Source: Lachnospiraceae bacterium NK4A144 | Lineage (GTDB): Bacteria; Bacillota; Clostridia; Lachnospirales; Lachnospiraceae | Length of the DNA: 64,000 bases | Assembly (NCBI GenBank): GCA_000424365.1 | Contig: AUJT01000002.1 | Coordinates: 1 to 64,000 of the forward strand | Direction of reading: 5' to 3' | In this document: positions 25,611 through 59,375 of the stretch, piece after piece | Layout of the letters: every line of letters begins with the position of its first letter | How positions within the stretch are numbered: the first letter of the stretch is position 1 | Notes under the pieces: model-generated | The model's database searches: none | Seen by the model: the letters and a program-made list of their open reading frames with translations, nothing else | What the model was told of the DNA's origin: nothing | Translations under genes and position numbers: made by a program

Positions 25611-27224
25611 TCAAAGCTTCGGACCTGCAGCTACGAGTGCCTTACCAGCCTCGTTGCCCTCATACTTAGCGAAGTTCTTGATGAATCTGCCAGCAAGATC
25701 CTTTGCCTTTGTCTCCCACTCGGAAGCATCAGCATATGTATCACGAGGATCAAGGATCTTAGGATCAACTCCAGGAAGCTCTGTCGGAACCTCAAAGTCG
25801 AACATCGGGATCTTCTTTGTAGGTGCCTTCTTGATGTCACCGCTAAGGATAGCATCGATGATTCCACGAGTATCCTTAATTGTGATTCTCTTACCTGTGC
25901 CGTTCCAACCTGTGTTTACAAGGTAAGCCTTTGCACCGGACTTCTCCATCTTCTTAACGAGCTCCTCAGCGTACTTTGTAGGATGAAGCTCAAGGAATGC
26001 CTGACCGAAGCAAGCTGAGAATGTAGGAGTAGGCTCAGTGATGCCGCGCTCTGTACCAGCAAGCTTTGCTGTGAATCCGGACAGGAAGTAGTACTTTGTC
26101 TGCTCAGGTGTCAGGATAGATACCGGAGGAAGTACTCCGAATGCATCTGCTGACAGGAAGATAACGTTCTGAGCGTCAGGACCTGCAGAAACAGGGTTAA
26201 CCTTCTGAACGATGTTCTCGATGTGATCGATAGGATAAGATACACGAGTATTCTCTGTTACGCTCTTATCATCGAAATCGATCTTTCCGTCATCAGCAAC
26301 TGTTACGTTCTCAAGAAGAGCATTTCTCTTGATAGCGTTAAAGATATCAGGCTCAGACTCCTTATCAAGACCGATAACCTTTGCGTAGCATCCACCCTCG
26401 AAGTTGAATACGCCGTTGTCATCCCAGCCGTGCTCGTCATCACCGATGAGAAGTCTCTTCGGATCTGTGGAAAGAGTTGTCTTACCTGTTCCGGAAAGTC
26501 CGAAGAAGATAGCTGTGTTCTTTCCGTCCATATCTGTGTTAGCGGAGCAGTGCATGGAAGCGATGCCCTTAAGAGGCAGATAGTAGTTCATCATTGAGAA
26601 CATACCCTTCTTCATCTCTCCGCCGTACCATGTATTGATGATAACCTGCTCACGGCTTGTGATGTTGAATACTACTGCTGTCTCAGAGTTAAGGCCAAGC
26701 TCCTTGTAGTTCTCTACCTTTGCCTTTGATGCGTTGTAAACAACGAAATCAGGCTCGAAGTTCTCTTCTTCCTCAGCGGTAGGCTTGATGAACATGTTCT
26801 TGATGAAGTGAGCCTGCCAAGCAACCTCTACGATGAAACGAACTGCCATACGTGTATCTTTATTTGCACCGCAGAAAGCATCTACTACGAAAAGTCTCTT
26901 ATTGGAGAGCTCTTCCTGGGCGATCTTCTTTACTGCTTCCCATGCTTCCTTTGTAGCAGGGTGGTTATCGTTCTTATACTCGTCAGATGTCCACCATACA
27001 GTATCCTTGGAGTTCTCATCCATAACAATGAACTTATCCTTAGGAGATCTTCCTGTATAGATACCTGTCATAACGTTTACAGCGCCAAGCTCTGTTTCCT
27101 TACCTACTTCAAATCCCTCAAGACCAGCCTTGGTCTCTTCTTCGAAAAGCATCTCGTAAGAAGGATTGTAAACGATCTCAGTTGTTCCGTTGATACCATA
27201 CTTCGTTAAATCAATTTTTGCCAT
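25611..27224 (-). CDS. pckA: Phosphoenolpyruvate carboxykinase (ATP)
   Basis: Encodes 537 residues from the ATG at 27224, chosen because AAAGAGG lies 8-9 bases upstream. An in-frame ATG at 27281 falls inside a leader hairpin. The enzyme interconverts oxaloacetate and PEP with ATP/ADP. In fermentative gut and rumen anaerobes it often runs towards oxaloacetate, fixing CO2. The P-loop Gly-Leu-Ser-Gly-Thr-Gly-Lys-Thr-Thr lies at about 223-231 in this numbering, preceded by the Cys-Ser-Ala-Asn region. Arg-Ser-Pro-Lys-Asp-Lys-Phe near residue 60 binds the substrate. The length matches the ATP-type family. It is a single-gene unit with its own terminator. Confidence 0.96.
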
Positions 27225-27261
27225 AATGTCAACCTCTTTTTTTGATTGATTTTTGATTACG

Positions 27262-27330
27262 GAGAAATCTGAATGGTGCATGGATTTCTCAAAGAACCTA
27301 GTTATCTGCTAATAACCAAAGTTTATTATA
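27262..27330 (-). promoter_or_regulatory. Promoter and structured leader of pckA
   Basis: A -10 TATAAT (27325-27330 on the minus strand) lacks a good -35 at 17 bases; the closest is TTGATG at 19. The roughly 95-base leader contains a perfect hairpin GAGAAATC (27283-27290) / GATTTCTC (27262-27269) and a smaller GTTAT / ATAAC stem just after the start. No known riboswitch is recognised. Post-transcriptional control is possible. Confidence 0.4.
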
Positions 27331-27485
27331 CATGATTGCCAAGCAAAATCATCAAAAATTTAATAAATTACGTAAAAAAATACATAAACGCAGGATAACG
27401 CCCCCTAAATGTATTTATTGTATACAGTAATACACAGAACAAAGAATCTGCTTTTGTCGGATTCTCCGCACAATCGCGGTAGAAA

Positions 27486-27516
27486 AAGGGCTCTTCCTAA
27501 TGAAGGAAAAGCCCTT
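27486..27516 (-). terminator. Terminator of the C1 peptidase gene
   Basis: AAGGGCT / AGCCCTT with further pairing (TTCCT / AGGAA) around a short loop lies 20 bases past the stop, followed by a T-run on the minus strand. Confidence 0.85.
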
Positions 27517-27535
27517 AAGTCAAAACTATATTACA

Positions 27536-29800
27536 TTATTTTTTTACCACAACGCCCTTGTAGTTATTCTTAAATGTGATCGTAAATCCCTCTGATGACG
27601 AACCGGTGTAACTATAGTCAGTTTTCTTTGGTTTCATATCTACACCATCTGCTTTGACAATTATTTTCTTTATCTGACCATTCTTCACCGTCAGGTTCAC
27701 CATGTCAGCTGTAACATTTCGCTCCACCACTTCAAATTTCGCGGTTGATTTTTTTGTACCGCCTTTGTACGGTGCGCTCTTCTTTTTCCACTTCACATTA
27801 ACTTCAGCATCGCCCTTTTTCTTATTCTTCTTATATCCGATCGTATAGTCGGTTTTATAGGAATAAAGCACACCCTTATAAACCACATATGATTTCTTGG
27901 ACGGACAGATCTTCTTTCCTGTGAACTGGAACTTCGGCTCAGGAGTATCTTTACCATCAGCCATGCTCAATACAAGCACATATTTGCCATCCGTTGTTTT
28001 ATATGTGCCGTAGTTAACGTCATATATAAGCGTCACTTCTTTTCCGGATGGATCCTTGAATTTCTCTTCACACTCATTTTCAGTTGTATCAACAGTATGC
28101 GCTGAGATGCAGAAATTACCGGTTCCATTTTCACTGGCCTCGATCAGATCATGCCAGGAACCATTTTCTGCATAAAAGCTCTGATTCTTCTTTATTCCAC
28201 ACTCAACATTGACCTCTGAATTTCCATACGTCATGCTCTCCTCAATGACAACTGCTCCTGCATCTGTTGTCACAACAATAGAGAAATAGCTGTCATTTGC
28301 AAGAAGAACCGGAGAACTGAGCGGAATCGTATATACTCCGGGAAGAATCAGATCTCCATTTGTAGTTGCGCTCTCAACAAGCGTTCCGCTAACAGGGTCA
28401 CTGTTGCTATTCAGATTTCTGTAAACCTTTATCTCATACTTTGTCGAAGCTAAAACCTCTAACCCAATTTCAGTGAGCTTCTGATTGCTGTCACCCTTTA
28501 CCTTAAAAACATTAGCCTGGTTTTTAACACCATCAAAATTTCTCATCCAATGAAACTGAGTATCGTAATAGTAATTGTAATCATAGCTATTTTCTTTTAC
28601 CACGTCATAAATAAATGCGCCCACTAATGACGGGTCCTCATACGAGATCCAAAAATAGCTCCAAAAATTGTAAAAATCTGTATTCTCATCTGCCCAGCTA
28701 TTACGCGCAAGCCACGCGCCATTTTTTTCCGGCTTTTTTGTTCCACCAAAATTTTCTTTTGAAAAATTATCATCCCATCCCACTAATGCAATTTCATGAT
28801 TTGCATTTTTATTATCATCATAAACGTAATATGCATTAGTTGTACTATTATAGTATTTACCATCTGCATGGAACGCAATGCCTACGGCTCCATTCTGCAT
28901 TACAGCTTCTTTTGTGATCGACCTGTTGTTTTCATCCTTTGTAACATCCGTGAGCAACAGATCTTTCAGCTGAAGAACTTTCTTATCCTTGAATGCATCC
29001 AGATCGATATTCAGATTGCCGTTTTCGTCAAATCGTTTATCATCTTTTTTATAGGTGTATGGCAATTCATCTTCATTAATAAAACCATACCCTTTACTCA
29101 GAAACTGTCCGGTAAAAAGACCATCACCACCATTCTGCAGCAGACCATTATCACTGACTGTAGATGAAACACGGCTCACAGCATCGTCATCACCAACAAC
29201 CGGATTCTCCAGATTCTTAAACATACCATACGCCAGATACAATTCGCTTAAGTCAATGCTCTTATCGGCATTCCCGTGTGTTATCTCATAAAACTCGGAG
29301 CTGCACACTGCACTATGTGCCCAGCATGTACCAAATTCATCCTGATCTCTGCACTTCGGGTATTTTCCGGAAATAATTTTCTTCGTCTCCGTATCATTGT
29401 CTCCCGGATACCTTGCAGGTATTTCAGTTCTCGGTGTATAACCGCTTAGTGAATTTTCATCATCCTCTACTTTCGCATTCTTTATCGCAGAAAAAGAAAG
29501 ATCTGTATCATCGATCTGGAAAATATCCTTCCATGGAAGGGAAATATGACCTGTCGTATGCTCCAGGCTGTCCGACTGACCAGTATTAACATCACTAATA
29601 TCAGATGGTTCATTATACCGGACTCTGCCATTCTCTGTTCCTTTTTCATCGGATAGAAACACATCTGTCTCCTGCGTAATACTCCCTACTTCAATGTCTT
29701 CTAAAGCGTCTGCCTCCCCTGCAAAAACAGGACATGTCATCATAGACGCTGACATTAGTATTGCAATAAACTTTCCTGATATCCCCCTAAATCTCCTCAT
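27536..29800 (-). CDS. Secreted papain-like (C1) cysteine peptidase with surface tail
   Basis: Encodes 754 residues. A signal peptide ends near residue 27 (Val-Phe-Ala-Gly). The C1A catalytic domain spans about 130-400. The nucleophile is Cys159 in Gly-Thr-Cys-Trp-Ala-His-Ser, the general base is His335 in Asn-His-Glu-Ile-Ala-Leu-Val-Gly-Trp, and Asn367 lies in Arg-Asn-Ser-Trp, so the triad is complete. Residues about 400-590 resemble the lectin-like beta domain that follows C1 cores in many Firmicutes. Residues about 600-754 are a Lys-rich beta-type tail that broadly resembles the tail of the protein at 417-2411. It probably degrades or processes proteins at or beyond the cell surface. A single-gene unit. 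Confidence 0.9.
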   Translation of the reverse strand: MRRFRGISGKFIAILMSASMMTCPVFAGEADALEDIEVGSITQETDVFLSDEKGTENGRVRYNEPSDISDVNTGQSDSLEHTTGHISLPWKDIFQIDDTDLSFSAIKNAKVEDDENSLSGYTPRTEIPARYPGDNDTETKKIISGKYPKCRDQDEFGTCWAHSAVCSSEFYEITHGNADKSIDLSELYLAYGMFKNLENPVVGDDDAVSRVSSTVSDNGLLQNGGDGLFTGQFLSKGYGFINEDELPYTYKKDDKRFDENGNLNIDLDAFKDKKVLQLKDLLLTDVTKDENNRSITKEAVMQNGAVGIAFHADGKYYNSTTNAYYVYDDNKNANHEIALVGWDDNFSKENFGGTKKPEKNGAWLARNSWADENTDFYNFWSYFWISYEDPSLVGAFIYDVVKENSYDYNYYYDTQFHWMRNFDGVKNQANVFKVKGDSNQKLTEIGLEVLASTKYEIKVYRNLNSNSDPVSGTLVESATTNGDLILPGVYTIPLSSPVLLANDSYFSIVVTTDAGAVVIEESMTYGNSEVNVECGIKKNQSFYAENGSWHDLIEASENGTGNFCISAHTVDTTENECEEKFKDPSGKEVTLIYDVNYGTYKTTDGKYVLVLSMADGKDTPEPKFQFTGKKICPSKKSYVVYKGVLYSYKTDYTIGYKKNKKKGDAEVNVKWKKKSAPYKGGTKKSTAKFEVVERNVTADMVNLTVKNGQIKKIIVKADGVDMKPKKTDYSYTGSSSEGFTITFKNNYKGVVVKK

Positions 29801-30340: not shown

Positions 30341-32086
30341 TCATACCGCCTCTTCGGTAACACTTTTATTAGAAATGACGATTTCTCTGTCGCAATAGTT
30401 GAGGACACTCTTTCTGTGTGTTACGAGCAGGCAGGTCGGACGAGGTTCAAGTGCGCAGATGCCCTGCATTACCTTCTTTTCCGTATCTTCATCAAGAGCT
30501 GACGTGGATTCATCGAGAATGATAAATGCTGACTTTCTGATAACTGCTCTTGCGATAGCGAGTCTCTGAGCCTGTCCTTCTGAAAGACCCACGCCCTTCT
30601 CTCCTACTCTGGTGTCCAGTCCATCCGGCAGATCCTTAAGGAAGTCCATGCAATCCGTGATCTCCAATGCTTCCATCATTTCTGCTTCTGTAGCATCGCT
30701 CTTTCCGAGGAGAAGATTATCCCTTATCGTACCGGAAAACAGGGTATTTCCCTGAGGAACATATGAAATGAACGCTCGGCTCGCTCCGCTGACCTTTGCC
30801 TTATGTCCTGCTTTGTCATGAAATACTACGCTTCCTCTGTCCGTCTGAAGGAAATACAGAAGGATTCTTACCAATGTTGTCTTACCGATACCGGATTTAC
30901 CCATTACTGCTACAAATTCCCCCGGCTCGATCTTTAGAGAAACATGACTCAGCACGTCTTTTGATTCTTTCTCAAAAGCATTTTTTGCCATCCCGGAACC
31001 TATAAGTGCTCTGTCATAAGCAAAACTCAAGTCTGAAACTTCTACGCCTACAGCGCCGCTCATTTCTCCTGCATCTATCCTGTCTTCCACAGGAATGCTC
31101 TGGATTTCCATTACACGTCCCGCAGACGCAAGAATCGATACTGCCCCCGAAAAACTGCTGACAAGCTCAACGATAGGAGCCTGAACCCTGCCGAAAAGTG
31201 TGATAAAGAGAGTCAGTGTACCATAAGTGATATTTCCCTTTGCTATCTCATACGCGGCATAAAGAAACGCAAACATATATCCCATGGAAAATGTTCCGTT
31301 CATAACAAGACTCGTAACTGCGCCAAGCTTGCTTTTTTTCCATACCCAATAAAATCTCTCTTCTCTAAGCTCTGTGAGTCTCTCCGAGAAACGCTCCTCT
31401 CCATTAAATGCCTTTACGACAAGAAGATTTGCGAGGCTTTCCTGTATAAATGATCGATATGCAGTCTCGGTTTCCTGTACTTTTACCTGTAGTCTTTTTA
31501 ATACTTTTCCAAGCATCCATGACAGAACTACTCCAAGCGGAGTGAGGAAGAGAGCCGAAACAGCCAGTATTGGCGAAAAGTAAAACAGCGTGAAAAATAC
31601 AGAAACGAGCTGAATTAAAAGCACCAAAATACGAGGTATCAAGTTGACCATACCGTTAGCGATATTTCCGGCATCACTGGTCATACGAGTCATCATATCA
31701 CCGGTGTGAAAACGCTGGGTTCCGATCCATACCGAACGAAGTAATTTGTCATAAACCTGCTTACGGATACCGAAGCTGTATTTCTCATTAATCATTGTAG
31801 ATGCCAGATCAAGAATAACCTGCACCAACAACTGAAAGATCATAACTGCAGCAAATGTGAGAAAGACCGCTGCGTCTGTTTTTCCCTGACTCGCTGTATC
31901 GACGAGCTGACGCGATACCAGCGCGGAAAAGATCGCGAAATAGGTCATTCCTATATTAACCGCCATCATGCCGCCGATCCTGAATTTAAACGGCGCTGTG
32001 TAATGCATGAGCCATTTTATATACTGCTTTGTCTTTTCCTTGTCTGTCACAAATGATTTTAACTGTCTTAAAGATTGTGATGCCAT
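30341..32086 (-). CDS. ABC exporter, fused membrane and ATPase domains
   Basis: Encodes 581 residues. Six membrane helices (about 30-310) are followed by an ATPase domain. Walker A (Gly-Lys-Ser-Gly-Ile-Gly-Lys402-Thr-Thr), Walker B (Phe-Ile-Ile-Leu-Asp-Glu) and a signature Leu501-Ser-Glu-Gly-Gln505 are present. The usual signature is Leu-Ser-Gly-Gly-Gln, so the third residue is Glu. The architecture is that of homodimeric lipid, drug or peptide exporters. LasD/McjD-type exporters of lasso peptides have the same size and layout, so it is a candidate exporter for the RiPP locus starting 8 kb away, but nothing in the sequence proves that. It is transcribed leftwards alone. Confidence 0.88.
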   Translation of the reverse strand: MASQSLRQLKSFVTDKEKTKQYIKWLMHYTAPFKFRIGGMMAVNIGMTYFAIFSALVSRQLVDTASQGKTDAAVFLTFAAVMIFQLLVQVILDLASTMINEKYSFGIRKQVYDKLLRSVWIGTQRFHTGDMMTRMTSDAGNIANGMVNLIPRILVLLIQLVSVFFTLFYFSPILAVSALFLTPLGVVLSWMLGKVLKRLQVKVQETETAYRSFIQESLANLLVVKAFNGEERFSERLTELREERFYWVWKKSKLGAVTSLVMNGTFSMGYMFAFLYAAYEIAKGNITYGTLTLFITLFGRVQAPIVELVSSFSGAVSILASAGRVMEIQSIPVEDRIDAGEMSGAVGVEVSDLSFAYDRALIGSGMAKNAFEKESKDVLSHVSLKIEPGEFVAVMGKSGIGKTTLVRILLYFLQTDRGSVVFHDKAGHKAKVSGASRAFISYVPQGNTLFSGTIRDNLLLGKSDATEAEMMEALEITDCMDFLKDLPDGLDTRVGEKGVGLSEGQAQRLAIARAVIRKSAFIILDESTSALDEDTEKKVMQGICALEPRPTCLLVTHRKSVLNYCDREIVISNKSVTEEAV

Positions 32087-32217: not shown

Positions 32218-32407
32218 GATGTAAGGGTCAAAAGTAAATTTTGCCCCTTACTGATGTCACGGATTGCTTCATTGCTACGCAATTCCCACAATCCTAAAAC
32301 ACTCGCATTCCGCGTAATAACGCTACTTGCTCGTGTTTTGCGGGTCCCAAGGTCTCAATCCTCTTTGTGCAAGCACAATCGGATTTTGACCTTTTGACCC
32401 TGACATC
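32218..32407. repeat. 190-bp palindromic element, long form
   Basis: The ends are 17-bp inverted repeats with one mismatch (GATGTAAGGGTCAAAAG / CTTTTGACCCTGACATC). Inside are further hairpins: GTAAGGGTCAAAAG / ATTTTGCCCCTTAC, AAAACAC / GTGTTTT and TTGTGC-AA-GCACAA. The last 66 bp (32342-32407) are identical to 34130-34195. No ORF is present. It has the character of a non-autonomous mobile or REP-like element and occupies half of the 395-bp divergent gap between the ABC exporter and the response regulator. Confidence 0.7.
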
Positions 32408-32481
32408 ATATCTTGTGCGAAAACTAAAGTTCCGGTCGTATCGGAGATTTTTATTTCCGCACCCGTAATACGAGGTAATTT

Positions 32482-34290: not shown

Positions 34291-35334
34291 TCAACCACGT
34301 CCCCTTGTAACCTCAAATATGGTCATAGCTTTTTTTATTCTCCTCCGTACAGCTTGCCCCAATGCATATCTTCTGTATAATGACGCAACTTCCCGATCAG
34401 AAAAGAACCGGTGCGCCTCACGAATAAAAGGATTTGCCATGATTTCCTTTTTCCATGACTTTTTAACATCATTATCCCAATCATATTCATGTTTTAAGCC
34501 GTACATCTGATGTATCTCAAACATTATCCAATATTGATACATCTTCTTTCTATATTTCTGTGCTACTCCAATCTGCTCAAGAGTCTTCATATACACCTTA
34601 AAGATCTTGTTTCGGTTATTCATCTCATCTCTGCAATCATCTGGTTTTTTTGTAAAAATCCTGGACAAGCTGGACTTCTGCTGATAACAGTAAACTACCT
34701 CTCTATCATTGATCACATAAACAGAATCTGCAAAAAAAAGATAATCCAGAGAAAACACAAAATCCTCTCCAAGTGTGATTTCCTCTCGAAACCGGATATT
34801 ATGCTTTCTTATGATTTCCATCCGAAATATCTTGTTCCACACCACTCCAAAATAGTGATGTCCGGGGTCGATAAGCGTCTCCTCTAAATACCTTTTGCAA
34901 GACCGTTTTCCACCACGTATGAGTCTTTCTACAGGGACTAAACATCCATGTATCTTTCTGTCATAAGAGCAAACTGCCATATCACAGCCATCTATCCTTG
35001 TCATAACCCTGACAAGTTTCTCAACAAAATCTTTACGCACATAATCATCCGCATCGAGAAACATCAGATATTTTCCTGACGCCTTCTCAATGCCTAGATT
35101 ACGAGCCGCTGAAACGCCTTTATTATCCTGATAGTGATACTGTATCCTTGAATCTATATCCGCTGCTTTTCTAACAGCTTCTCTGGTAGAATCTGTTGAA
35201 CCATCATCGACCACAATAATTTCTATATCAGCAAATGTCTGATTCCAAAGTGAATCAAGACACCTTCCTATCGTCTTTTCCGACTGCCAGGCAGGAACAA
35301 TGACGGAAACTGTCGGCTGTTTCAAAACTTGCAT
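34291..35334 (-). CDS. GT2-family glycosyltransferase, copy A of a duplicated pair
   Basis: Encodes 347 residues. The GT-A fold opens with Val-Ser-Val-Ile-Val-Pro-Ala-Trp-Gln. Asp-Asp-Gly-Ser-Thr-Asp (about 41-46) and Leu-Asp-Ala-Asp-Asp-Tyr (about 95-100, the metal/nucleotide-sugar DxD) are intact. No membrane helix is predicted. It should add a sugar from a nucleotide donor during glycan assembly at the cytoplasmic face. It is closely related to the protein at 38863-39918 along the full length, including the unusual Ala-Trp-Gln-Ser-Glu-Lys-Thr start and the first bases upstream, so the two arose by duplication. Sugar specificity cannot be read from sequence. Confidence 0.9.
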   Translation of the reverse strand: MQVLKQPTVSVIVPAWQSEKTIGRCLDSLWNQTFADIEIIVVDDGSTDSTREAVRKAADIDSRIQYHYQDNKGVSAARNLGIEKASGKYLMFLDADDYVRKDFVEKLVRVMTRIDGCDMAVCSYDRKIHGCLVPVERLIRGGKRSCKRYLEETLIDPGHHYFGVVWNKIFRMEIIRKHNIRFREEITLGEDFVFSLDYLFFADSVYVINDREVVYCYQQKSSLSRIFTKKPDDCRDEMNNRNKIFKVYMKTLEQIGVAQKYRKKMYQYWIMFEIHQMYGLKHEYDWDNDVKKSWKKEIMANPFIREAHRFFSDREVASLYRRYALGQAVRRRIKKAMTIFEVTRGRG

Positions 35335-38862: not shown

Positions 38863-39918
38863 CTAATACAAAGTGCATACAAAAGAACCATGCCTTTGTG
38901 TTATGATCATACCCTTTTTTATTCTCCGTCGTACAAACTGCCCCAATGCATATCTTCTATACAATGACAAAACTTCCCGATCAGAGAAAAATCTATGTGC
39001 TTCCTGTATGAATGGATTTGCCATAATCTCCTTTTCCCAGATTCTTTTCAGATCTTCATTCCAATGATATTCGTGGCGCAATCCATACATCTGATGTATC
39101 TCAAACATTATCCAGTACTGATACATCTTTTTTCTATATTTCTGTGCGATACCGACCTGTTCAAGAATTTTATGATATACCTTAAAAATCTTGTTTCGAT
39201 TATTTAACTCATCTCTGCAATCCTCAGGTGTTTTCATAAAGATTCTGGACAAGCTGGACTTCTGCTGATAACAATAGACCACCAGTCTATCCGTAATAGC
39301 AAACACCAAATCAGCATGGATAAGATAATCGAGAGAAAAAACAAAGTCCTCTCCCAGCGTAATCTCTTCCCGAAATCGGATATTATGTTTTCTTATGATT
39401 TCCATTCGAAAAATCTTATTCCACACCACACCAAAATAATGATGTCCCGGATCTGTCAGAGTTTCCTTCAAATATTCTTTACCTGACCTTTTTCCCCCAT
39501 GGATAAGTCTTTCTACCGGCACCATCCATCCATTGATTCGTCTATCATAGGAACAGATCACCAGGTCGCATCCTTCTTCCTCCGACATGGTTCTTACCAG
39601 CTTCTCAACAAAATCCCTGTGGGCGTAATCATCTGCATCGAGAAACATCAGGTATTCTCCGGATGCCTTTTCAACCCCCAGGTTACGGGCATCCGATACA
39701 CCATTATTATCCTGATAATAATACCTTATCCTTGAATCTATATCTGCTGCCTGTCTAACTATATCCCTCGTGGAATCAGTTGACCCATCATCGATCACGA
39801 TTATTTCTATATCAGTAAATGTCTGCTCCCTAAGTGAAGTCAGACACCTTCCTATCGTTTTTTCTGACTGCCAGGCAGGAACTACTATAGATACTACCGG
39901 CTGTTTCAAAGCTTGCAT
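38863..39918 (-). CDS. GT2-family glycosyltransferase, copy B of a duplicated pair
   Basis: Encodes 351 residues, closely similar over its length to the protein at 34291-35334 (same Ala-Trp-Gln-Ser-Glu-Lys-Thr-Ile-Gly-Arg start, Leu-Asp-Ala-Asp-Asp-Tyr DxD site and Gly-His-His-Tyr-Phe-Gly-Val-Val-Trp-Asn-Lys block). The C-terminal tails differ: here it ends in a short unrelated stretch after residue 335. The two copies lie in the same direction about 4.5 kb apart and flank an Rpn gene, a lipoprotein and another GT2. Role in glycan assembly as for copy A; distinct acceptor use is possible. Confidence 0.9.
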   Translation of the reverse strand: MQALKQPVVSIVVPAWQSEKTIGRCLTSLREQTFTDIEIIVIDDGSTDSTRDIVRQAADIDSRIRYYYQDNNGVSDARNLGVEKASGEYLMFLDADDYAHRDFVEKLVRTMSEEEGCDLVICSYDRRINGWMVPVERLIHGGKRSGKEYLKETLTDPGHHYFGVVWNKIFRMEIIRKHNIRFREEITLGEDFVFSLDYLIHADLVFAITDRLVVYCYQQKSSLSRIFMKTPEDCRDELNNRNKIFKVYHKILEQVGIAQKYRKKMYQYWIMFEIHQMYGLRHEYHWNEDLKRIWEKEIMANPFIQEAHRFFSDREVLSLYRRYALGQFVRRRIKKGMIITQRHGSFVCTLY

Positions 39919-40159: not shown

Positions 40160-40435
40160 ATGAGGGAATCAACAAAGATCAAGCTCGTAAAAAACCTCGA
40201 CGTAACCGATCTCGCCGGCGACAAGGTCATGGTAGACTTTGAAAGCGGCAAGTATTTCATGTTGAAGGGCACCGCTGCAGATATCTGGAATCTGATACAG
40301 AATGACACAACAGTTGGCGATGTTAAAAAAGAACTTCAGAAGATTTATGACGTGGATGATACCACCTGTCTTTCAGGAATCGAAGGCTTTCTGAACCAGC
40401 TTAAAGAAAATGAATTTGTGACGATCACAGATTGA
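40160..40435 (+). CDS. PqqD-type RiPP recognition element (lasso B1-like)
   Basis: Encodes 91 residues from the ATG at 40160. AGGAG sits 7-8 bases upstream, and an in-frame ATG at 40061 falls in the promoter. The fold is the winged-helix PqqD/RRE type: Leu-x-Gly-Asp-Lys-Val-Met-Val-Asp, Gly-Lys-Tyr-Phe-Met-Leu-Lys-Gly-Thr-Ala-Ala-Asp-Ile-Trp (about 30-44) and a C-terminal helix with Leu-Asn-Gln-Leu-Lys-Glu. These proteins bind the leader of a RiPP precursor and present it to the protease. It is convergent with the kinase gene, sharing a bidirectional terminator, and 1.1 kb from the precursor. It is transcribed opposite to the other RiPP genes, which is unusual. Confidence 0.88.
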   Translation: MRESTKIKLVKNLDVTDLAGDKVMVDFESGKYFMLKGTAADIWNLIQNDTTVGDVKKELQKIYDVDDTTCLSGIEGFLNQLKENEFVTITD

Positions 40436-40449
40436 TAATATTTAACATG

Positions 40450-40501
40450 AAAAACCTGCATTATACTGTATAGACATTACAGTATAGTGCAGGTTTTTTT
40501 A
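40450..40501. terminator. Bidirectional terminator between the PqqD-type and kinase genes
   Basis: AAAACCTGCA..TATACTGTA pairs with TACAGTATA..TGCAGGTTTT over about 19 bp with one mismatch, with T-runs on both sides. Confidence 0.9.
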
Positions 40502-40503
40502 TC

Positions 40504-41427
40504 TCAACTGTTCTTTAGCACATCCATCACCATCTGTGCACGTTCTTTAATGGTCAAACCCTCTTTCGGACGGGAAATCTCATAAATCTTCATGGTTGCA
40601 CCCATTTTTGAGATCAGCTGGAACATCTCCGGCTGCGTACCATACTCCTCATAATCTCCTGCTCTATAAAAGTTATTAAGGAGCATTGTGATCTTATCAC
40701 CACCGGTAATTTCTTTCATCTCCGGCTTATCACCATCATTTATCGTAAGGTAAAACAATATAGATAAAGGGAGAACACGATCTTCATAAACATCAGAGCT
40801 GTCAACAAAGAACTTAAATCTTTCATCCATTGTGACCGGTTTCAGCTTCTTTGGATCATATCCGTAATGCTCAACTGTGTCTCTGCAAAGCCTTCTGATC
40901 GGATGCGCAGAATATGCAACTACTTCTCCGTTCTCATCTGCACCTATCCTTATCACATCATCAGACATAAAGCCAAGTCCCATGCTGATAAGTTCTGTTG
41001 TTATAGTAGATTTTCCTGCTCCGGACTCTCCGGATATCAGAACAGCCTTATCGTTATATGACAAAAGACTTCCATGAACCGTTAAATTTCCTCTCTCAAT
41101 AATGATACGTGGAAAAGCAAAATTCATAAGTGTCAGATAAAAGTTTGTAGGGTTGCAATTCTCTTTTAAACAATACCCAATATGATTTCCTGCCTTAACT
41201 TCATAAAAACCGGTTTCACTTTTATAAAATCTGATAAAGTCCTCACCATAGATATATGCAGCCTTATTAACTTTCATCATCTCAGAATGAACAAGCTCTT
41301 CATCCCAAAGATCATCCTGTCTTTCAAGGACCACGTCCGGTTCGTCAAAATCAGCTGCCAGGACACCATATATTTCGGTATCAGCTAAAACATTAAATCC
41401 AAACAATTTATATTTAAAAGTATTCAT
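40504..41427 (-). CDS. HPr-kinase-like protein of the RiPP locus
   Basis: Encodes 307 residues. The P-loop Gly133-Glu-Ser-Gly-Ala-Gly-Lys139-Ser-Thr and the following Met-Ser-Asp-Asp-Val-Ile-Arg-Ile (about 154-161) match the HprK C-terminal domain, but the HPr-binding N-terminal module is replaced by unrelated sequence. Proteins of this type in paeninodin-like lasso clusters phosphorylate the C-terminal Ser of the precursor. Here the precursor has no Ser after residue 13, so the phospho-acceptor must differ (Thr or the terminal Tyr-Asp region are options), or the protein has another job. It is the last gene of the leftward cyclase-precursor-kinase set, 155 bp after the precursor stop with a hairpin between. 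Confidence 0.85.
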   Translation of the reverse strand: MNTFKYKLFGFNVLADTEIYGVLAADFDEPDVVLERQDDLWDEELVHSEMMKVNKAAYIYGEDFIRFYKSETGFYEVKAGNHIGYCLKENCNPTNFYLTLMNFAFPRIIIERGNLTVHGSLLSYNDKAVLISGESGAGKSTITTELISMGLGFMSDDVIRIGADENGEVVAYSAHPIRRLCRDTVEHYGYDPKKLKPVTMDERFKFFVDSSDVYEDRVLPLSILFYLTINDGDKPEMKEITGGDKITMLLNNFYRAGDYEEYGTQPEMFQLISKMGATMKIYEISRPKEGLTIKERAQMVMDVLKNS

Positions 41428-41477
41428 ATTTTAAGAATCCTTATTATATCGTCCTAAAAATCTCATAAGCTAAAAAT

Positions 41478-41515
41478 GAACCGGTAGTCTGGTATAATAC
41501 CCAAATCCACCGATT
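41478..41515 (-). terminator. Hairpin between precursor and kinase genes
   Basis: GAATCGGT / ACCGGTTC with inner GGTAT / ATACC pairing forms an imperfect stem on the minus strand and is followed by ATTTTT. It probably works as a partial terminator, raising precursor over kinase mRNA, as is common in RiPP operons. Confidence 0.5.
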
Positions 41516-41582
41516 CATCACCATTACTCTAGCCTATGCGTATTAAACAAGCTAATAACAATATTCTGTATTTCAGAAATTA

Positions 41583-41762
41583 TCAATCGTAAGCATTGTC
41601 ATCGCCATGGGGTACCCACCATGCACCCTTTTTACCAGTATCAGGGTTTGTCAATGTTTTATCCCAAACAGCCGGGCCATCAGTTTTATCCTGATGATAC
41701 CAACCACCTGCTGTTGCATTGATTGAAAGTTCCTTGAGCTCAGGAATATTCCAAGTCTTCAT
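41583..41762 (-). CDS. Lasso-like RiPP precursor peptide
   Basis: A 59-residue frame with AAAGGAG 11 bases before the ATG. The leader fits the Firmicute lasso pattern read by PqqD-type proteins: Trp4-x-x-Pro7-x-Leu9-x-x-Leu12 and Thr17 at the expected -2 position, then Ala18 and Gly19-Gly20. If the core begins at Gly19, the ring acceptor could be Asp25 (position 7). From Gly20 it would be Asp28 (position 9). The core of about 41 residues is far longer than typical lasso cores (about 15-25), contains four Trp, two Tyr and seven Asp, and ends Asn-Ala-Tyr-Asp. It lies between the cyclase and kinase genes on the same strand. The class is inferred from partners and leader, not from a known homologue. 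Confidence 0.8.
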   Translation of the reverse strand: MKTWNIPELKELSINATAGGWYHQDKTDGPAVWDKTLTNPDTGKKGAWWVPHGDDNAYD

Positions 41763-41840
41763 AATAGATAATTCTCCTTTCCTCTTGATATGTATATCTT
41801 ATCATACAATTCATTTGTTAAAGGAAATCTATCATATTTG

Positions 41841-43748
41841 TTACATTCCTGTAATTTTGTTAATTTGTTTAAGCAGAAGTACCGTATATAATACTCCAAA
41901 GAGATCAAATGTATCGAGCTCATCTGTGCTCCCCTTAAGCGCATCCGTCAGTTTGTTGAGATCGATCCATTTATTGTCGGCTGACTGATCAATTATCTCC
42001 AGACCATCTCTCCTGATCATATCCCACTCTTTCATAATACGAGCCTTTGCATCCGATCCCTGTACACCCTTATTCTTAATATTCAAAATATAATCCGGAA
42101 CTATACCTTTCATATACTCTTTAATCAGTCTCCTGGTTTCGCCATTTTTTGTAAACTGCTCCACCGGAAGTCCCAAACACCATTCAATAATTCTCTTATC
42201 ACGTGACGGGTCTCTTGTCATGACACCAAGATGAGAACCGTTTAATGATGAAAGATCACTGATCTGCCTCAAAATGATCATTTGACTGATTTTTTTTCTC
42301 ATTGAGTGATATTTTTCAAAAGTAAGAGCATCTTCATGTGCTCTACTCATCAATACATCATATGCATAATCCTTTCCTGGTGCATTATCTAAAAGAAACT
42401 TATTATTTAATTCCACTTCTAACTTTTTCGGCGGGTTGAGTTTCCCATAAAAATAGGCTTCAACAAAATGCTTGAAACTATAATGATTCTTGTTACAAAA
42501 AGCCTTTGCTTCCTTCAGCATTTTTATATATCTGTGTCTATTGAACAGATCATTTATATACATATTATAATCGCCAAACGAAATGCTCAGGTTTCCATAT
42601 TCTCCCGTGAGCATCAGATTTATCCCATTTTCATGAGCTTTTCTATATGCATTATGGAACCAGATCATACTATAAACTGACTTAAGCGGAAGACCAAAAT
42701 AATCCAACAGCTCATTATTTTCTTTCCAAATGCTTATGTCACTCATATCAAGAAAACTACACTCCAGATTCTTGAAAATCTGTGCAGTTTTTCTTACATA
42801 CCCCGACTCGTCCTGTGCCCCTTTACGTCCATCATCTTCAGTAGCAAGTCCTTTTTCCGGAATAATTGTAAATGAGTGCAGCTTTTTACCGTGTTTTTCA
42901 AGGAACGGTGCAGCATAAGCATTTACCGTATTGGAATCATAACCTCCACTAAGTGCTATTCCTGTCTCCTTATCGGAACGAAGAACACAGGTCACGGCTT
43001 CCGACATTAACTCCTGAAATGCCTCTCGATATTCGTCATCGTTTTTTAGTCTTAATTCCTTAAAGTCTGACATGGGCGTCCAATACTGCTTTTCGTGTAC
43101 GCCGCTGTCATCAAACACTATATAACCTCCGGGAGCCGGTCTCCTGATCTCCATTACAGGAGTTTCATGTAGTTCACTGAAAACTCCGAGAGTATCATCT
43201 CCAAGAAAATATGAGATCCAGTTTCCATTAACAGTACACTTATAAAGAGGACGAAGCGCTTCTATAAATGTAGAGTAATACAGTGTTTTTCCAATGATCC
43301 TATAATATACGCATCTGTTTCCCACCGCATCATCTACTAAGATAAAACGTCTCCTCCTTGCATCATAATATGCAAAAACATACGCACCAAGCAGATCGTT
43401 AAGCCTGTTATCTTCGTATTCTTTTACAAATCTGAATACTAACTCTCCATCAGGCAATTTCGCAGTTGTTTCAGGTGCAAGTCCCAGTGCCCTGCCTGTC
43501 TCGCTACGGTTATCCAGCATTATATCCGCGTCAAACCATGTATCTGAATGCTCATCATGTACCGGCAGAACCTCTCCGTGAGATTCCGGTGTCACATATT
43601 GAAGTGCACATCCCATATAAATTCCATCACCGGATATTTCGGATACCCGATCTATATTGCACTTTAATGCCGGTGCCTTCAAAATATCCTGCTGTTCCTT
43701 TGTAATCGGTCTGCCGTCCAGACTCACTGCTCCCCAGATAATTGACAT
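41841..43748 (-). CDS. Asparagine-synthetase-like lasso cyclase
   Basis: Encodes 635 residues from the ATG at 43748, which has AAGGA 8-9 bases upstream. An in-frame ATG 33 bases earlier lacks one. The N-terminal Ntn-like half (1-200) lacks the catalytic Cys2 of true asparagine synthetases (it begins Met-Ser-Ile-Ile-Trp-Gly), so it should not hydrolyse glutamine. The ATP-pyrophosphatase half has Ser267-Gly-Gly-Tyr-Asp-Ser272. Lasso cyclases use this domain to activate an Asp or Glu side chain as an acyl-AMP for attack by the core N-terminal amine. It is 78 bp upstream of the precursor on the same strand. Plain asparagine synthesis is unlikely given the missing Cys and the neighbours. Confidence 0.88.
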   Translation of the reverse strand: MSIIWGAVSLDGRPITKEQQDILKAPALKCNIDRVSEISGDGIYMGCALQYVTPESHGEVLPVHDEHSDTWFDADIMLDNRSETGRALGLAPETTAKLPDGELVFRFVKEYEDNRLNDLLGAYVFAYYDARRRRFILVDDAVGNRCVYYRIIGKTLYYSTFIEALRPLYKCTVNGNWISYFLGDDTLGVFSELHETPVMEIRRPAPGGYIVFDDSGVHEKQYWTPMSDFKELRLKNDDEYREAFQELMSEAVTCVLRSDKETGIALSGGYDSNTVNAYAAPFLEKHGKKLHSFTIIPEKGLATEDDGRKGAQDESGYVRKTAQIFKNLECSFLDMSDISIWKENNELLDYFGLPLKSVYSMIWFHNAYRKAHENGINLMLTGEYGNLSISFGDYNMYINDLFNRHRYIKMLKEAKAFCNKNHYSFKHFVEAYFYGKLNPPKKLEVELNNKFLLDNAPGKDYAYDVLMSRAHEDALTFEKYHSMRKKISQMIILRQISDLSSLNGSHLGVMTRDPSRDKRIIEWCLGLPVEQFTKNGETRRLIKEYMKGIVPDYILNIKNKGVQGSDAKARIMKEWDMIRRDGLEIIDQSADNKWIDLNKLTDALKGSTDELDTFDLFGVLYTVLLLKQINKITGM

Positions 43749-43856: not shown

Positions 43857-45578
43857 TCACTCTATTGAAACGATCTGGCCATCAACATGCCAACCATCTC
43901 CTTCTTTCTTTATGGAGTACCAGCAGACTCTCTTACCGTCTTCAAGATACTTATCATACGAAGGCATGTTTCCTATTGCTTTAAGGATTGCATCTTCATC
44001 ATCTTTGATCCGCTCTGTCTTTGTGATCGTTCCTGCTCCGAGTTTTATATAATTACTCGCTCTGTAATCTGTACGGCTTCCCTTGCAAAGATAAAACATT
44101 GCCTTGGTCTCTACGATTTGTTCCGATTCTGGAGCTTCTACAACCGGTTCAACAGGTGTTTCTACAACCGTTTCTTCTACCGGAGTCTCAGGTGTTTCTT
44201 CTGATACCTCAGGGATATTTTCAACAGGTTCTTCAACTGTGTTTTCTTCTGTAACTATCTGACCGTCCACATGCCAGCCATCGTTCTCTTTCTTTATAGA
44301 GTACCAGCAAACTCTCTGATTCTCACCGAGATACTCATCATACGACGGTACCTTACCAAGATTTGCAAGGATCGCATCCTCATCATCCTTTACTCTTTCC
44401 TCTTTTGTAATAGTACCCTTACCAAGCTTAATATAATTACTAGTCCTATAATCAGTTCTATCGCCCTTACAGAGAAAGTATTTTGCCTGTGTCTCTATTA
44501 CAGGCTCTACTATTTCAGGTCCAGGTTCTGCAACTGTTTCTGTCGGCTGCTCTTCTACAGGCGCTTCAATCTCATTCTCTTCTTCCTGACTGCCGCCTAT
44601 CATAAAGTTCACAGCATGCGCTTCCTTATCGGTGAGTTTTCCTGCCATCAGCTCACCATTCTTGTCTGTATAGTACCAGAGACCATCTTCAAAAAACAGG
44701 ACATCACTTACATCATGGATAAAGATATCTGAATAAGTATTTGAATCAGCCTTGATCCTGTTATCATTTTCATCATAAGACGTAAAATTCAAGTGTCTAT
44801 CCTTTACTACCGGATAATTCTTAAATTCATCATCAGACTTCAGGAAAAACTTACGCCCAATGATTCCATCAGACCTCGTATGATCCCATGTGGTATCAAC
44901 GTTATACCACTTTCCATCAAGCTGAACTACCGACCATTCATGCTTATTTCCACTTGCTATACCTGCTTTTATACCAACTCTCTTTAAAAGATAATTATAT
45001 GCAGCAGTATATCCCGTACAGCTTCCATATCCAAAGATAAGCGGTCCGCCTGCATAACCGTATATCAGTTTGTCCTTACTATATGATGTCATATCCACGA
45101 TCCTATCATGAAGATAGAGTGCTTTGTCAGCTTCTGTCATATCATCAGTGATACCGGACATGATATCATCTACATTTTCCGTTATAGTCGCATAATTCTT
45201 TTGAAAATCTTCTGCGTACTCCTGGTAATAAACCTTGACCTTTAAAACATATTTCTTATCCCAGGTAGGAGAAATCTGTGCAAATGTATAGCAGTATGAT
45301 GCTAATGCACCTTCATTAGCACACACATCATCAAAGATATTCTTAAGCTCAGCGAAATCATCAAACTTATACTTAGAAACATCATGAGGTGTTTTGTCTG
45401 TCGTAACCAACATCTCAAGGAACATCTCTCTCAATTCCTTTTCCTGTTCCTTTGTCAGATTAGCAGCACTAACTTTCTGCATACTTCCCGGAAGAGCAAA
45501 TAGAATAAGTAAAACCAGTAATAACCACATCACAAACTTAACGATCCAACTTGTTTCAATCACGCGACTCCTTGTCAT
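43857..45578 (-). CDS. Exported transglutaminase-like protein with two C-terminal repeats
   Basis: Encodes 573 residues. GAGGAGG precedes the ATG. An N-terminal hydrophobic segment (about 14-38) acts as signal or anchor. The transglutaminase-like core has a complete triad: Cys187 (Tyr-Gly-Ser-Cys-Thr-Gly-Tyr), His213 (Asn-Lys-His-Glu-Trp) and Asp228 (Tyr-Asn-Val-Asp-Thr-Thr-Trp). After an acidic Pro/Glu/Thr/Val linker there are two roughly 85-residue tandem repeats (about 385-470 and 490-573) sharing Lys-Gly-x-Arg-Thr-Asp-Tyr-Arg and Cys-Trp-Tyr-Ser-Ile-Lys-Lys. Such proteins act on surface proteins or peptidoglycan peptides. It follows the cyclase by 108 bp upstream but is exported, so it is not the lasso leader protease. 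Confidence 0.85.
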   Translation of the reverse strand: MTRSRVIETSWIVKFVMWLLLVLLILFALPGSMQKVSAANLTKEQEKELREMFLEMLVTTDKTPHDVSKYKFDDFAELKNIFDDVCANEGALASYCYTFAQISPTWDKKYVLKVKVYYQEYAEDFQKNYATITENVDDIMSGITDDMTEADKALYLHDRIVDMTSYSKDKLIYGYAGGPLIFGYGSCTGYTAAYNYLLKRVGIKAGIASGNKHEWSVVQLDGKWYNVDTTWDHTRSDGIIGRKFFLKSDDEFKNYPVVKDRHLNFTSYDENDNRIKADSNTYSDIFIHDVSDVLFFEDGLWYYTDKNGELMAGKLTDKEAHAVNFMIGGSQEEENEIEAPVEEQPTETVAEPGPEIVEPVIETQAKYFLCKGDRTDYRTSNYIKLGKGTITKEERVKDDEDAILANLGKVPSYDEYLGENQRVCWYSIKKENDGWHVDGQIVTEENTVEEPVENIPEVSEETPETPVEETVVETPVEPVVEAPESEQIVETKAMFYLCKGSRTDYRASNYIKLGAGTITKTERIKDDEDAILKAIGNMPSYDKYLEDGKRVCWYSIKKEGDGWHVDGQIVSIE

Positions 45579-56484: not shown

Positions 56485-56910
56485 TTACCTAAATTTCGCA
56501 ACAACAGCGAAACCATCGCCATTTCCTCCGGTAAGATAGTAGCTTCCGCATCTAAGCCAGGCATGCGCTTTTAGTTTTCCCTCTTCTTCCATTACACCCA
56601 GATAGATCGTAGATGAAATATTTTTTTCATTCAGAAGTTTACGAAGGGTGAGCGCACGTACGAAACATTTCGCATCCCAGGGCAAATGCTCTGTGATACG
56701 GTTTACATGAAATGCACAAAGTCTCACATATCTACCCATACCTTCCGGGAAATCATATGTCGATTCCTCTCCCCTGATTCCAAATTTTTTTTGAAGCTTT
56801 TTCATCGGCACTTTCATTACCAAAAAACGATAATAAAATGAGTAAATATAAGCTTTTATTGTAAGTCCTTTTTCACCGTTTTTCGTCAAAAAGCTGTAAA
56901 AATCTATCAT
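56485..56910 (-). CDS. Lasso-peptide B2-type leader protease (Transglut_core3)
   Basis: Encodes 141 residues, a normal size for stand-alone B2 proteins. The cysteine-protease triad is readable: Cys82 in Trp-Asp-Ala-Lys-Cys-Phe-Val-Arg-Ala-Leu-Thr-Leu-Arg, His116 in Lys-Ala-His-Ala-Trp, and Asp132 in Gly-Asn-Gly-Asp-Gly. In the family it cuts the leader before Gly1 of the core, guided by the separate PqqD-type protein. No other RiPP gene is adjacent: the precursor is 14.7 kb away and the neighbours are glycosyltransferases. Cytoplasmic, no signal peptide. Confidence 0.85.
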   Translation of the reverse strand: MIDFYSFLTKNGEKGLTIKAYIYSFYYRFLVMKVPMKKLQKKFGIRGEESTYDFPEGMGRYVRLCAFHVNRITEHLPWDAKCFVRALTLRKLLNEKNISSTIYLGVMEEEGKLKAHAWLRCGSYYLTGGNGDGFAVVAKFR

Positions 56911-58067: not shown

Positions 58068-59375
58068 TTACCTTATCTCATCAAGTCCAAGCAGTTTCAC
58101 CATATACATTCTCTTCTCAGCAACATTAACCTTCTCGGCCGGATTATAGTAGTTTTTCTTATGAACAAAGTAATTGATGATAAACTTAAATCCTCTGTGA
58201 ATCCATGCGACCGGAAGAAGTACAGGATATTTTCTTGCATAGGAATATGTATATGGCATACTTTCACGATTAGGGAATATCATCTCGATCTTTCGCTTGA
58301 ATTTTGAACCTTCTACCTTGGCTTCTCCGAGGAAGTATGCTTCCATGGCACCTAGTATCTGCCATTTTGCATCTCTGTCCATACCGTCACCTACACTAAA
58401 CATATCTTCAAGAAATTCATCGAGATCTTCATCAATTATCTCTCTCTTATTAGGGAATATATCTCCTCTCATTCCGAGATGCTTTTCACAAATAGTAAAG
58501 AAACACGTTACAAAACGATGATATCCAAGCCTGTCTATCTTTTCCCAGAAGCTTTTCTTATCTATCTTGTCGAGGTGCTTATTTACAAATAATGTAATAT
58601 CTACCAGATATCGGATTCCCACACCCTCAAGTGAAAAGTGCTTGATAATATGGAACAATTGATACACCAGATGTTCCTCATATCCCAAGGTTGTAACCTC
58701 CTGCCCGCACGCATTTGTACGGATCAAGGAATTTCTGTCCGTCAGTTTCATCGAATCCAGTATATCAATTCTGCGTCCCTTGTAATCCTCCCAAAGCCTC
58801 GTATGCAGCTCGATCATATGCTGCACAGGTCCTCTTAGACGATATACCTGCACCTGCTCCTTGCTGTCGACTTCGTCTTTTACATAGCCCATCCTTTGAA
58901 ACAGCTTTTCTGCAGGTTCTCTATCTTCTTCATATACAAAGATATCTGTATCACATCCGGGACGCTCACTAAACTGTGGATAAAGGTCTGAGAGAAGCAT
59001 TCCCTTAAAGAAAACGAATGTCATGCCTTCTTTTTCTGCTTCAGCCTTAACCCTGGCTATCTGAACATTTTTTTGAAGCTCTGAGAACATTGATATTTTT
59101 GTGAACTGTCCCCAGCCCTCAAGCATCTCAATATCATCTATATCATAATTTTCAACACAATATTTCACTACCGGATATATAAGAGACGCTATCTTATTGG
59201 ACCTTGCTATTCCAAAGAAAGCCCTCCAATCCATAACCTCAAACACATCTTTTAGTTTGTCGTCAGGTTCTGTCTTTGTGATCGCACATTTCACAATATA
59301 AAGATATAATTCTCTAAGCCTCTTATCACGGAGACCTCTCTCCATTACTTTCCTAACTTCTTTATCCCTAATCAT
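58068..59375 (-). CDS. Uncharacterised nucleotidyltransferase (NTP_transf_5 type)
   Basis: Encodes 435 residues. AGGAGAG lies 9 bases before the ATG. The family signature Phe-Phe-Lys-Gly-Met-Leu-Leu-x-Asp-Leu-Tyr-Pro and Arg-x-x-x-Asp-Thr-Asp-Ile-Phe-Val (about 125-150) gives a minimal nucleotidyltransferase site. The rest is helical. Such proteins are frequent companions of lasso clusters in Firmicutes, often beside B2 proteins and kinases, with no proven reaction that I know. Here it is 1.2 kb from the B2-like gene on the same strand, but a plus-strand GT2 gene stands between them. Confidence 0.82.
   Translation of the reverse strand: MIRDKEVRKVMERGLRDKRLRELYLYIVKCAITKTEPDDKLKDVFEVMDWRAFFGIARSNKIASLIYPVVKYCVENYDIDDIEMLEGWGQFTKISMFSELQKNVQIARVKAEAEKEGMTFVFFKGMLLSDLYPQFSERPGCDTDIFVYEEDREPAEKLFQRMGYVKDEVDSKEQVQVYRLRGPVQHMIELHTRLWEDYKGRRIDILDSMKLTDRNSLIRTNACGQEVTTLGYEEHLVYQLFHIIKHFSLEGVGIRYLVDITLFVNKHLDKIDKKSFWEKIDRLGYHRFVTCFFTICEKHLGMRGDIFPNKREIIDEDLDEFLEDMFSVGDGMDRDAKWQILGAMEAYFLGEAKVEGSKFKRKIEMIFPNRESMPYTYSYARKYPVLLPVAWIHRGFKFIINYFVHKKNYYNPAEKVNVAEKRMYMVKLLGLDEIR

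Follow-up and report, generated by a model that had tools for sequence, protein, structure and literature searches.

A predicted paeninodin-like lasso peptide pathway dispersed over 29 kb of a surface-glycan locus in Lachnospiraceae bacterium NK4A144

The lasso gene set

Lachnospiraceae bacterium NK4A144 carries a set of genes related to those of lasso peptide pathways on contig AUJT01000002.1, positions 1-64,000; this full 64,000-nt stretch is called the window throughout. A first-pass annotation of the window had described a lasso-type locus for a ribosomally synthesised and post-translationally modified peptide (RiPP) within a glycan region, with a PqqD-type gene, an HprK-like gene, a cyclase lacking Cys2 and, between the latter two, a 59-codon frame with its own ribosome binding site. 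Each of these genes is present where it was described, as judged from the open reading frames (ORFs), the models PF05402, PF07475 and PF00733, the MSIIWG start of the cyclase and an AGGAG before the ATG of the short frame. The locus is further supported by the leader peptidase B2, the defining enzyme, which lies 13 kb away and outside the interval first described, as do N, the exporter, a GT2 gene and a transglutaminase-like gene. The set, whose reading frames are all intact, is dispersed over 29 kb dominated by glycan genes (glycosyltransferases, a pyruvyl transferase, GH5), and consists of the following genes:

41583..41762, minus strand: A, lasso precursor of 59 aa, AGGAG 5' of the ATG, between C and K
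41841..43748, minus strand: C, lasso cyclase with asparagine-synthetase fold and no Cys2; Asn_synthase PF00733, 78.5 bits
40504..41427, minus strand: K, HprK-like kinase; Hpr_kinase_C PF07475, 40.3 bits; His-Lys-Asp-Asp as in lasso kinases
40160..40435, plus strand: B1, PqqD-type RiPP recognition element (RRE), the leader-binding class; PqqD PF05402, 61.8 bits
56485..56910, minus strand: B2, lasso leader peptidase; PF13471, 62 bits; NF033537, 65.3 bits (cut-off 33)
58068..59375, minus strand: N, nucleotidyltransferase; PF14907, 138.7 bits
57032..58009, plus strand: GT2 glycosyltransferase, candidate tailoring enzyme, tail-to-tail with N
30341..32086, minus strand: D, ABC exporter, probable lasso exporter; ABC domains, best NCBIfam model MsbA

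The best NCBIfam models of the core genes are NF033524 (lasso_PadeA_fam) for A (E 7.4e-4, 19.2 bits, cut-off 27), NF033536 for B1 (64.5 bits, cut-off 80) and NF033535 for C (206.9 bits, cut-off 525), the AsnB model TIGR01536 giving C 109 bits. C keeps an SGGYDS motif. The best match of B1 among solved structures is chain B of 9x90 (E 8e-8), a paeninodin-type RRE in complex with its leader (PMC13381572). The His-Lys-Asp-Asp motif of lasso kinases (PMC9266682) is kept in 21 of 21 aligned kinases, and the Cys and His of B2 are conserved in all 15 aligned rows; searching the window's own genome for the B2 domain returned one match, at 56500-56739, inside the window. As to N, PsmN of pseudomycoidin, a protein of the PF14907 kind, has been tied by gene knock-outs to the attachment of a hexose to the kinase-made phosphate, though a host glycosyltransferase may have played a part (PMC9266682), and removal of the N gene from the cluster of a linear polyphosphorylated peptide (LPP) gave no detectable change (PMC13381572). 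D reaches 249.5 bits against the MsbA model (cut-off 602), and homologues of it, 44-84% identical, stand in the lasso loci of seven other genomes (G030, G004, G023, G155, G167, G136 and G236).

Cyclase phylogeny and sister loci

The cyclase tree holds 27 rows, and its reference lasso cyclases, none of them experimentally studied, were recognised from their annotation or from a B2 next to them. A branch with 100/100 support separates four AsnB rows from the rest; two of the four come from the genome of the window, one of this pair on a long branch. C falls with the lasso cyclases rather than with the AsnB proteins of primary metabolism. This was one of two comparisons proposed with the first-pass annotation; the other, a search for homologous short ORFs in related genomes, found them beside C and K, whereas an automated search for related loci with C as the query gave no confirmed one. 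The closest locus, that of G030, has the same layout, with identities of 96% for B2, 87% for N, 84% for B1, 77% for K, 60% for C and 41% for A. Its precursor homologue, of 53 aa and in the same position, encodes the same residue at 15 of the first 20 codons, and scores 22.4 bits against NF033524.

The orientation of B1, which had been called unusual, is not so: B1 lies opposite to C in 6 of the 13 loci that have both on one contig (the window, G030, G029, G089, G107 and the Butyrivibrio fibrisolvens plasmid) and on the same strand in G004, G023, G167, G155, G136, G365 and Priestia. Dispersal is likewise shared, the outermost parts located being some 25 kb apart in G030, G029 and G089, 33 kb in G004 and 54 kb in G023. 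It is no general rule, since five loci are compact, at about 5-10 kb (the B. fibrisolvens plasmid, G107, G167, G365 and Priestia).

Precursor, cut site and ring

The leader of A has W4, P7, L9, L12 and T17, followed by Gly19-Gly20, just as first described. Its pattern is found a single time in the window, while 100 simulated windows contain no example. For comparison, 27 precursors were collected, mostly hand-picked from leader-pattern matches that lie beside K or C and have a plausible leader, many other matches being dropped; to these were added the G030 row from contig C13 and the B. fibrisolvens plasmid row. Three rows come from G089, and Priestia is left out of the counts. Because the search pattern required the leader and a G, A, S or N a few residues past the leader Thr, the invariance of the leader and the Gly at the third residue past Thr (T+3; 21 of 27, with T+2 variable) are partly built in. 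The Asp at T+11 is not built in. It is found in 19 of the 27 precursors, with Asp at T+10 in five, Glu at T+10 in two more and neither in one; random draws from the 20 residues after Thr gave an expectation of 2.9, and none of 20000 reached 19, in a calculation that ignores the kinship of related rows. Asp at T+8 is present in 8/27.

An Asp at T+11 in 19 of 27 precursors means that either the cut breaks the rule of Thr at position -2 or the ring has ten residues: taking the Gly at T+3 as residue 1 gives a nine-residue ring and puts Thr at -3, while Thr at -2 gives a ring of ten. We think it probable that B2 cuts directly before Gly20. The predicted core would then be Gly20-Asp59 and the ring Gly20-Asp28, a span of nine residues with a small residue 1 and an Asp within positions 7-9.

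There is a smaller chance, though one to be taken seriously, that B2 cuts two residues past Thr, so that the core would begin at Gly19 and the ring would be Gly19-Asp28 (ten residues) or Gly19-Asp25 (seven). Thr at -2 is given for all previously reported precursors except an Ile/Val class (PMC10368454) and is described as highly conserved (PMC12670498), and the eight precursors with Asp at T+8 would accommodate the smaller ring. Speaking against a core from Gly19 are the frequent Gly at T+3, with the reservation made above, and the variable T+2, as well as the ring positions of 7-9 stated for known peptides (PMC10368454) and the lack of conservation of the T+8 Asp, which with 8 of 27 also led us to reject a seven-residue ring as a general rule. 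A lasso survey moreover required Gly-x7-Asp (PMC13289728), and Thr at -3 has been predicted for rumen precursors.

The weight of that last assignment depends on a homologue of paeninodin from Bacillus. We take its known core to begin two residues past Thr. The assignment of Thr at -3 was made for this Bacillus homologue as well as for the rumen precursors (PMC7533575), and must for that reason be read as a prediction. We found no experimental cut site for this precursor group in the literature, most of it surveyed at the level of listings.

The core of the window precursor contains no Ser, nor does that of G030, and the C-terminal Ser of the paeninodin family is thus absent; the hydroxyl residues of the window core are Thr27, 36, 38 and 42 and Tyr22 and 58. 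The characterised paeninodin-type kinases target a C-terminal Ser (PMC9266682), a Ser near the C-terminus is conserved in most rumen candidates (PMC7533575), and Ser3 is the target of the LPP and Bsf kinases (PMC10368454, PMC13381572).

The proposed pathway and its alternatives

From the genes, their domains, their phylogeny and their co-occurrence we infer which chemical steps take place, in what order, and that the exporter serves the product. B1 would bind the WxxPxL leader of A, and K would phosphorylate a hydroxyl of the core, which, because the core has no Ser, would be that of a Thr or Tyr. B2 would remove the leader just before Gly20, and C would activate Asp28 and form a ring of nine residues, Gly20-Asp28, that encircles the tail. 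N, possibly helped by the GT2 next to it, would add a sugar to the phosphate, and the ABC protein D would export the product of about 40 residues. Taken as a whole, a complete paeninodin-like, phosphate-tailoring lasso pathway, its genes scattered across 29 kb of a locus of capsule or exopolysaccharide type, is very probably what the window encodes. The paeninodin-like identity first proposed holds for the HprK-like kinase with its His-Lys-Asp-Asp residues; it does not extend to the curated precursor score or to the C-terminal Ser.

Two points tell against this interpretation. The best models of A, B1 and C are all lasso models, yet each score lies below its curated cut-off, and the predicted core of about 40 residues is longer than the 16-21 called typical in PMC7533575, although the cores of the rumen set there reach 42-44.

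It is improbable that the locus is a degenerate remnant whose scattered genes no longer yield a product. The dispersal over 29 kb and a core strongly unlike that of the sister locus would fit such decay, but the frames are intact, G030 keeps the layout with high identity, and several relatives are equally dispersed. Very unlikely, too, is an LPP, in which K and N would modify a linear core. RRE, HprK and N genes and MsbA-like exporters are common to LPPs, as is the capsule-locus setting (PMC13381572); the window, however, has a cyclase and B2, and its WxxP leader is not the YxxPxVLxHQ of LPPs. That C is an amidotransferase of primary metabolism or polysaccharide synthesis, with the short ORF arising by chance, is extremely unlikely, for in spite of the glycan setting and the 109 bits for AsnB, the tree speaks against an AsnB reading, which was rejected on that ground, Cys2 is missing, the lasso model gives 207 bits, precursors stand beside C in sister genomes, and AsnB-type genes lie elsewhere in the genome (contigs C30 and C20).

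Mixed ancestry and a second locus

The genes of the set do not share one phylogeny. C groups with G030, G089, G155 and G029 (100/99), while B2 and N of the window group with G004, G023, G039, G022 and B. fibrisolvens (100/99 and 97/99, in trees of 15 and 13 rows respectively). Forcing C together with the same-genus G004, G023 and G039 and B. fibrisolvens is rejected by the approximately unbiased test (p-AU 1e-62). The converse groupings of B2 are rejected as well (with G089 and G029, p-AU 1e-4; with G089 alone, 0.004; with G029 alone, 2e-5), as is N with G089 (9e-4). These results suggest that C, perhaps together with its precursor and kinase, is of different ancestry from B2 and N, and exchange is therefore likely.

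Other parts of the analysis count against so simple a division. K placed with the same-genus set gives a p-AU of 0.058, the best tree having the other grouping at 78/94, and is thus undecisive; B1, whose tree includes one very long row, rejects both groupings (0.023 and 0.00095); and the choice of groups followed inspection of the first trees. Because of the behaviour of K and B1, a single moving cassette is not established.

A second precursor-kinase-cyclase set is located on contig C5 of the same genome (locus L034, 7786-11017), without a B1 or B2 of its own. From the leader Thr its precursor reads TAYGILGWYEDGG, with a tail rich in Pro and Asn. G030 likewise has a second set, on its contig C13 (L036). 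The window genome has a single B2 and a single lasso-type B1, and G030 has one match to each of these two window genes, from which it would follow that one B1/B2 pair serves both loci. Another PqqD gene in the window genome (C2:112874) was considered as a second lasso B1 and rejected, as it matches no lasso PqqD model and adjoins OPT-transporter and pyruvate-oxidoreductase genes.

Companion genes and neighbouring features

Among 48 genomes of the genus, C and B2 were each found in 7, N in 6 and GT2 (at least 63% identity) in 5, namely the window's own and four others with copies 63-92% identical to it; all five genomes with GT2 also carry B2 and C. The co-occurrence of GT2 and B2 in the 48 genomes gives a Fisher p of 1.2e-5, uncorrected for kinship. 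The remaining genomes show partial sets: in G029, C and B2 are accompanied by a GT2 of just 40% identity, and N is absent at E 1e-20; the fragmented assembly of G022 shows B2 and N but neither C nor GT2; and G047 has the second type of C alone. N copies 44-49% identical adjoin B2 in G004, G023, G039 and G022, and the tail-to-tail order of N and GT2 in the window recurs in G030, in G004 and in the plasmid of B. fibrisolvens D1, whose GT2 is 66% identical. In 396 genomes of the family, a GT2 of at least 56% was found in four (the window's, G030, G089 and G242); that of G089, 64% identical, lies about 18 kb from its C. An exclusive link was rejected, since the 56% copy of G242 lies on a 29.8 kb contig without lasso genes. 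GT2 thus tends to accompany the lasso system, with one counterexample.

Two further features lie close to the core genes:

43857..45578, minus strand: transglutaminase-like protein, secreted-looking; PF01841, 24 bits (cut-off 23); a terminator of its own before C
40451..40497, no strand: terminator-like palindrome of 20 pairs between the convergent K and B1

The transglutaminase-like gene and C do not form one operon, as a terminator at 43852-43823 separates them here and they are divergent in G030. Cys187, His213 and Asp228 are invariant in six aligned sequences of the protein. In a survey of 23 hand-picked genomes (14 with lasso genes, 9 in which no C was found), each of the five genomes in the cyclase clade of the window has a match above 100 bits no more than two genes from C, and the remaining 18 score at most 64. 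Among the 396 family genomes the fifth genome above 100 bits is G170 (110.7). Of its 88 kb contig 17 kb were examined and contain no lasso gene, and G170 does not belong to the 8 genomes in which C is matched at E 1e-60. A further 15 family genomes score 66-85 bits, and no lasso gene was found in the two surroundings searched (G293 and G393). An exclusive tie to this cyclase clade was rejected on account of G170; the link is strong, not exclusive. No function follows from the structure model (mean predicted local distance difference test score 63.6), because its top Foldseek matches, a TGase, menin and putative cysteine proteases, have TM-scores of at most 0.30. It is our guess that the protein may fix or trim the exported peptide.

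Several other arrangements were seen. In G089 (L023, contig C4, 1324-16797), three similar precursors and two N genes surround one lasso set, along with two transglutaminase-like genes and a third ORF that matches just their repeat part. At the gathering threshold Rfam matched the window twice, both times away from B1; a Clostridiales-1 RNA (RF01699, 126.8 bits) lies at 32252-32408 on the minus strand, directly upstream of the ABC exporter gene. Two minus-strand glycosyltransferase genes, 34291-35334 and 38863-39918, look alike by eye and have between them genes for an Rpn-like protein, a lipoprotein-like protein and a third glycosyltransferase, a possible duplication.

Comparison with known systems

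Lasso systems have already been predicted in rumen Lachnospiraceae (Sabino et al. 2020, PMC7533575), and a 2026 survey gives 21 predicted lasso clusters in the Hungate collection, most of them in Butyrivibrio (PMC13289728). The precursor published for Lachnospiraceae bacterium KH1P17 (PMC7533575) is, by eye, that of G030 letter for letter, and the rumen clusters of that article resemble the window in leader type, in a Gly-Asp spacing of 9 and in the presence of kinases, of N and of glycosyltransferases; their Thr is assigned to -3 by prediction. The window precursor is absent from its Table 3, and three fragments of it matched no paper, supplementary files aside. Mixed ancestry, a transglutaminase-like partner and a second precursor-kinase-cyclase locus are features of the window that do not appear in the covered parts of the article.

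With the paeninodin and pseudomycoidin clusters of Bacilli the window shares A, B1, B2, C, an HprK-like K and the WxxPxL leader, and with pseudomycoidin also N; it differs in its longer core, which lacks Ser altogether, the C-terminal one included, and in its dispersed genes, and the annotated Priestia precursor has its Asp at T+10, not T+11. The presence of a related cyclase, of B2 (Transglut_core3) and of an RRE protein with a [Y/W]xxPx[L] leader is that of a predicted lasso system. LPP clusters share the RRE, HprK-like kinase, N, MsbA-like exporter and capsule locus; their leader peptidase is signal-peptidase-like, and they differ from the window in having a YxxP leader and in lacking a cyclase (PMC13381572); neither their full leader motif, YxxPxVLxHQxIxFETxxS, nor the lack of a cyclase is seen in the window. 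Plasmid pNP243 of B. fibrisolvens D1 (L068) has B2, K, C, A, N, a GT2 tail-to-tail with N, an opposite-strand B1, GH5 and a pyruvyl-transferase. It differs from the window in being compact (about 6 kb from B2 to B1), in a C of another clade and in an extra pair of PqqD and S24/S26 peptidase genes nearby. At 26614-27603 these last lie in a row with a 57-aa ORF, an arrangement resembling that published for LPPs.

The kind of system is thus known and a sister precursor is published; it would work in the manner of a paeninodin/pseudomycoidin-type lasso pathway. The frequent occurrence of paeninodin-like clusters in capsule loci has been described before, with the role of paeninodins stated to be unknown (Popov et al., PMC13381572). 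One could imagine that the lasso peptides belong to the cell-surface glycan programme of this lineage, an exchangeable cyclase/precursor cassette feeding a resident B2/N/glycosyltransferase module that would cut with Thr at -3 and place sugar on phosphorylated Thr or Tyr, and the transglutaminase-like protein fixing or trimming the peptide at the surface; so extended a picture is a long shot.

What is new here is the mixed ancestry, the B1/B2 pair apparently shared by two loci, the Asp at T+11, the Ser-free core and the transglutaminase-like and GT2 companions. The dispersal over 25-54 kb in six loci may explain why cluster finders call some such clusters incomplete. If the Asp at T+11 is the ring residue, then one half of the processing rule, Thr at -2 or ring positions 7-9, must bend for 19 of the 27 precursors, and the kinase is confronted with a core that offers no Ser, questions for which these loci provide a concrete test set.

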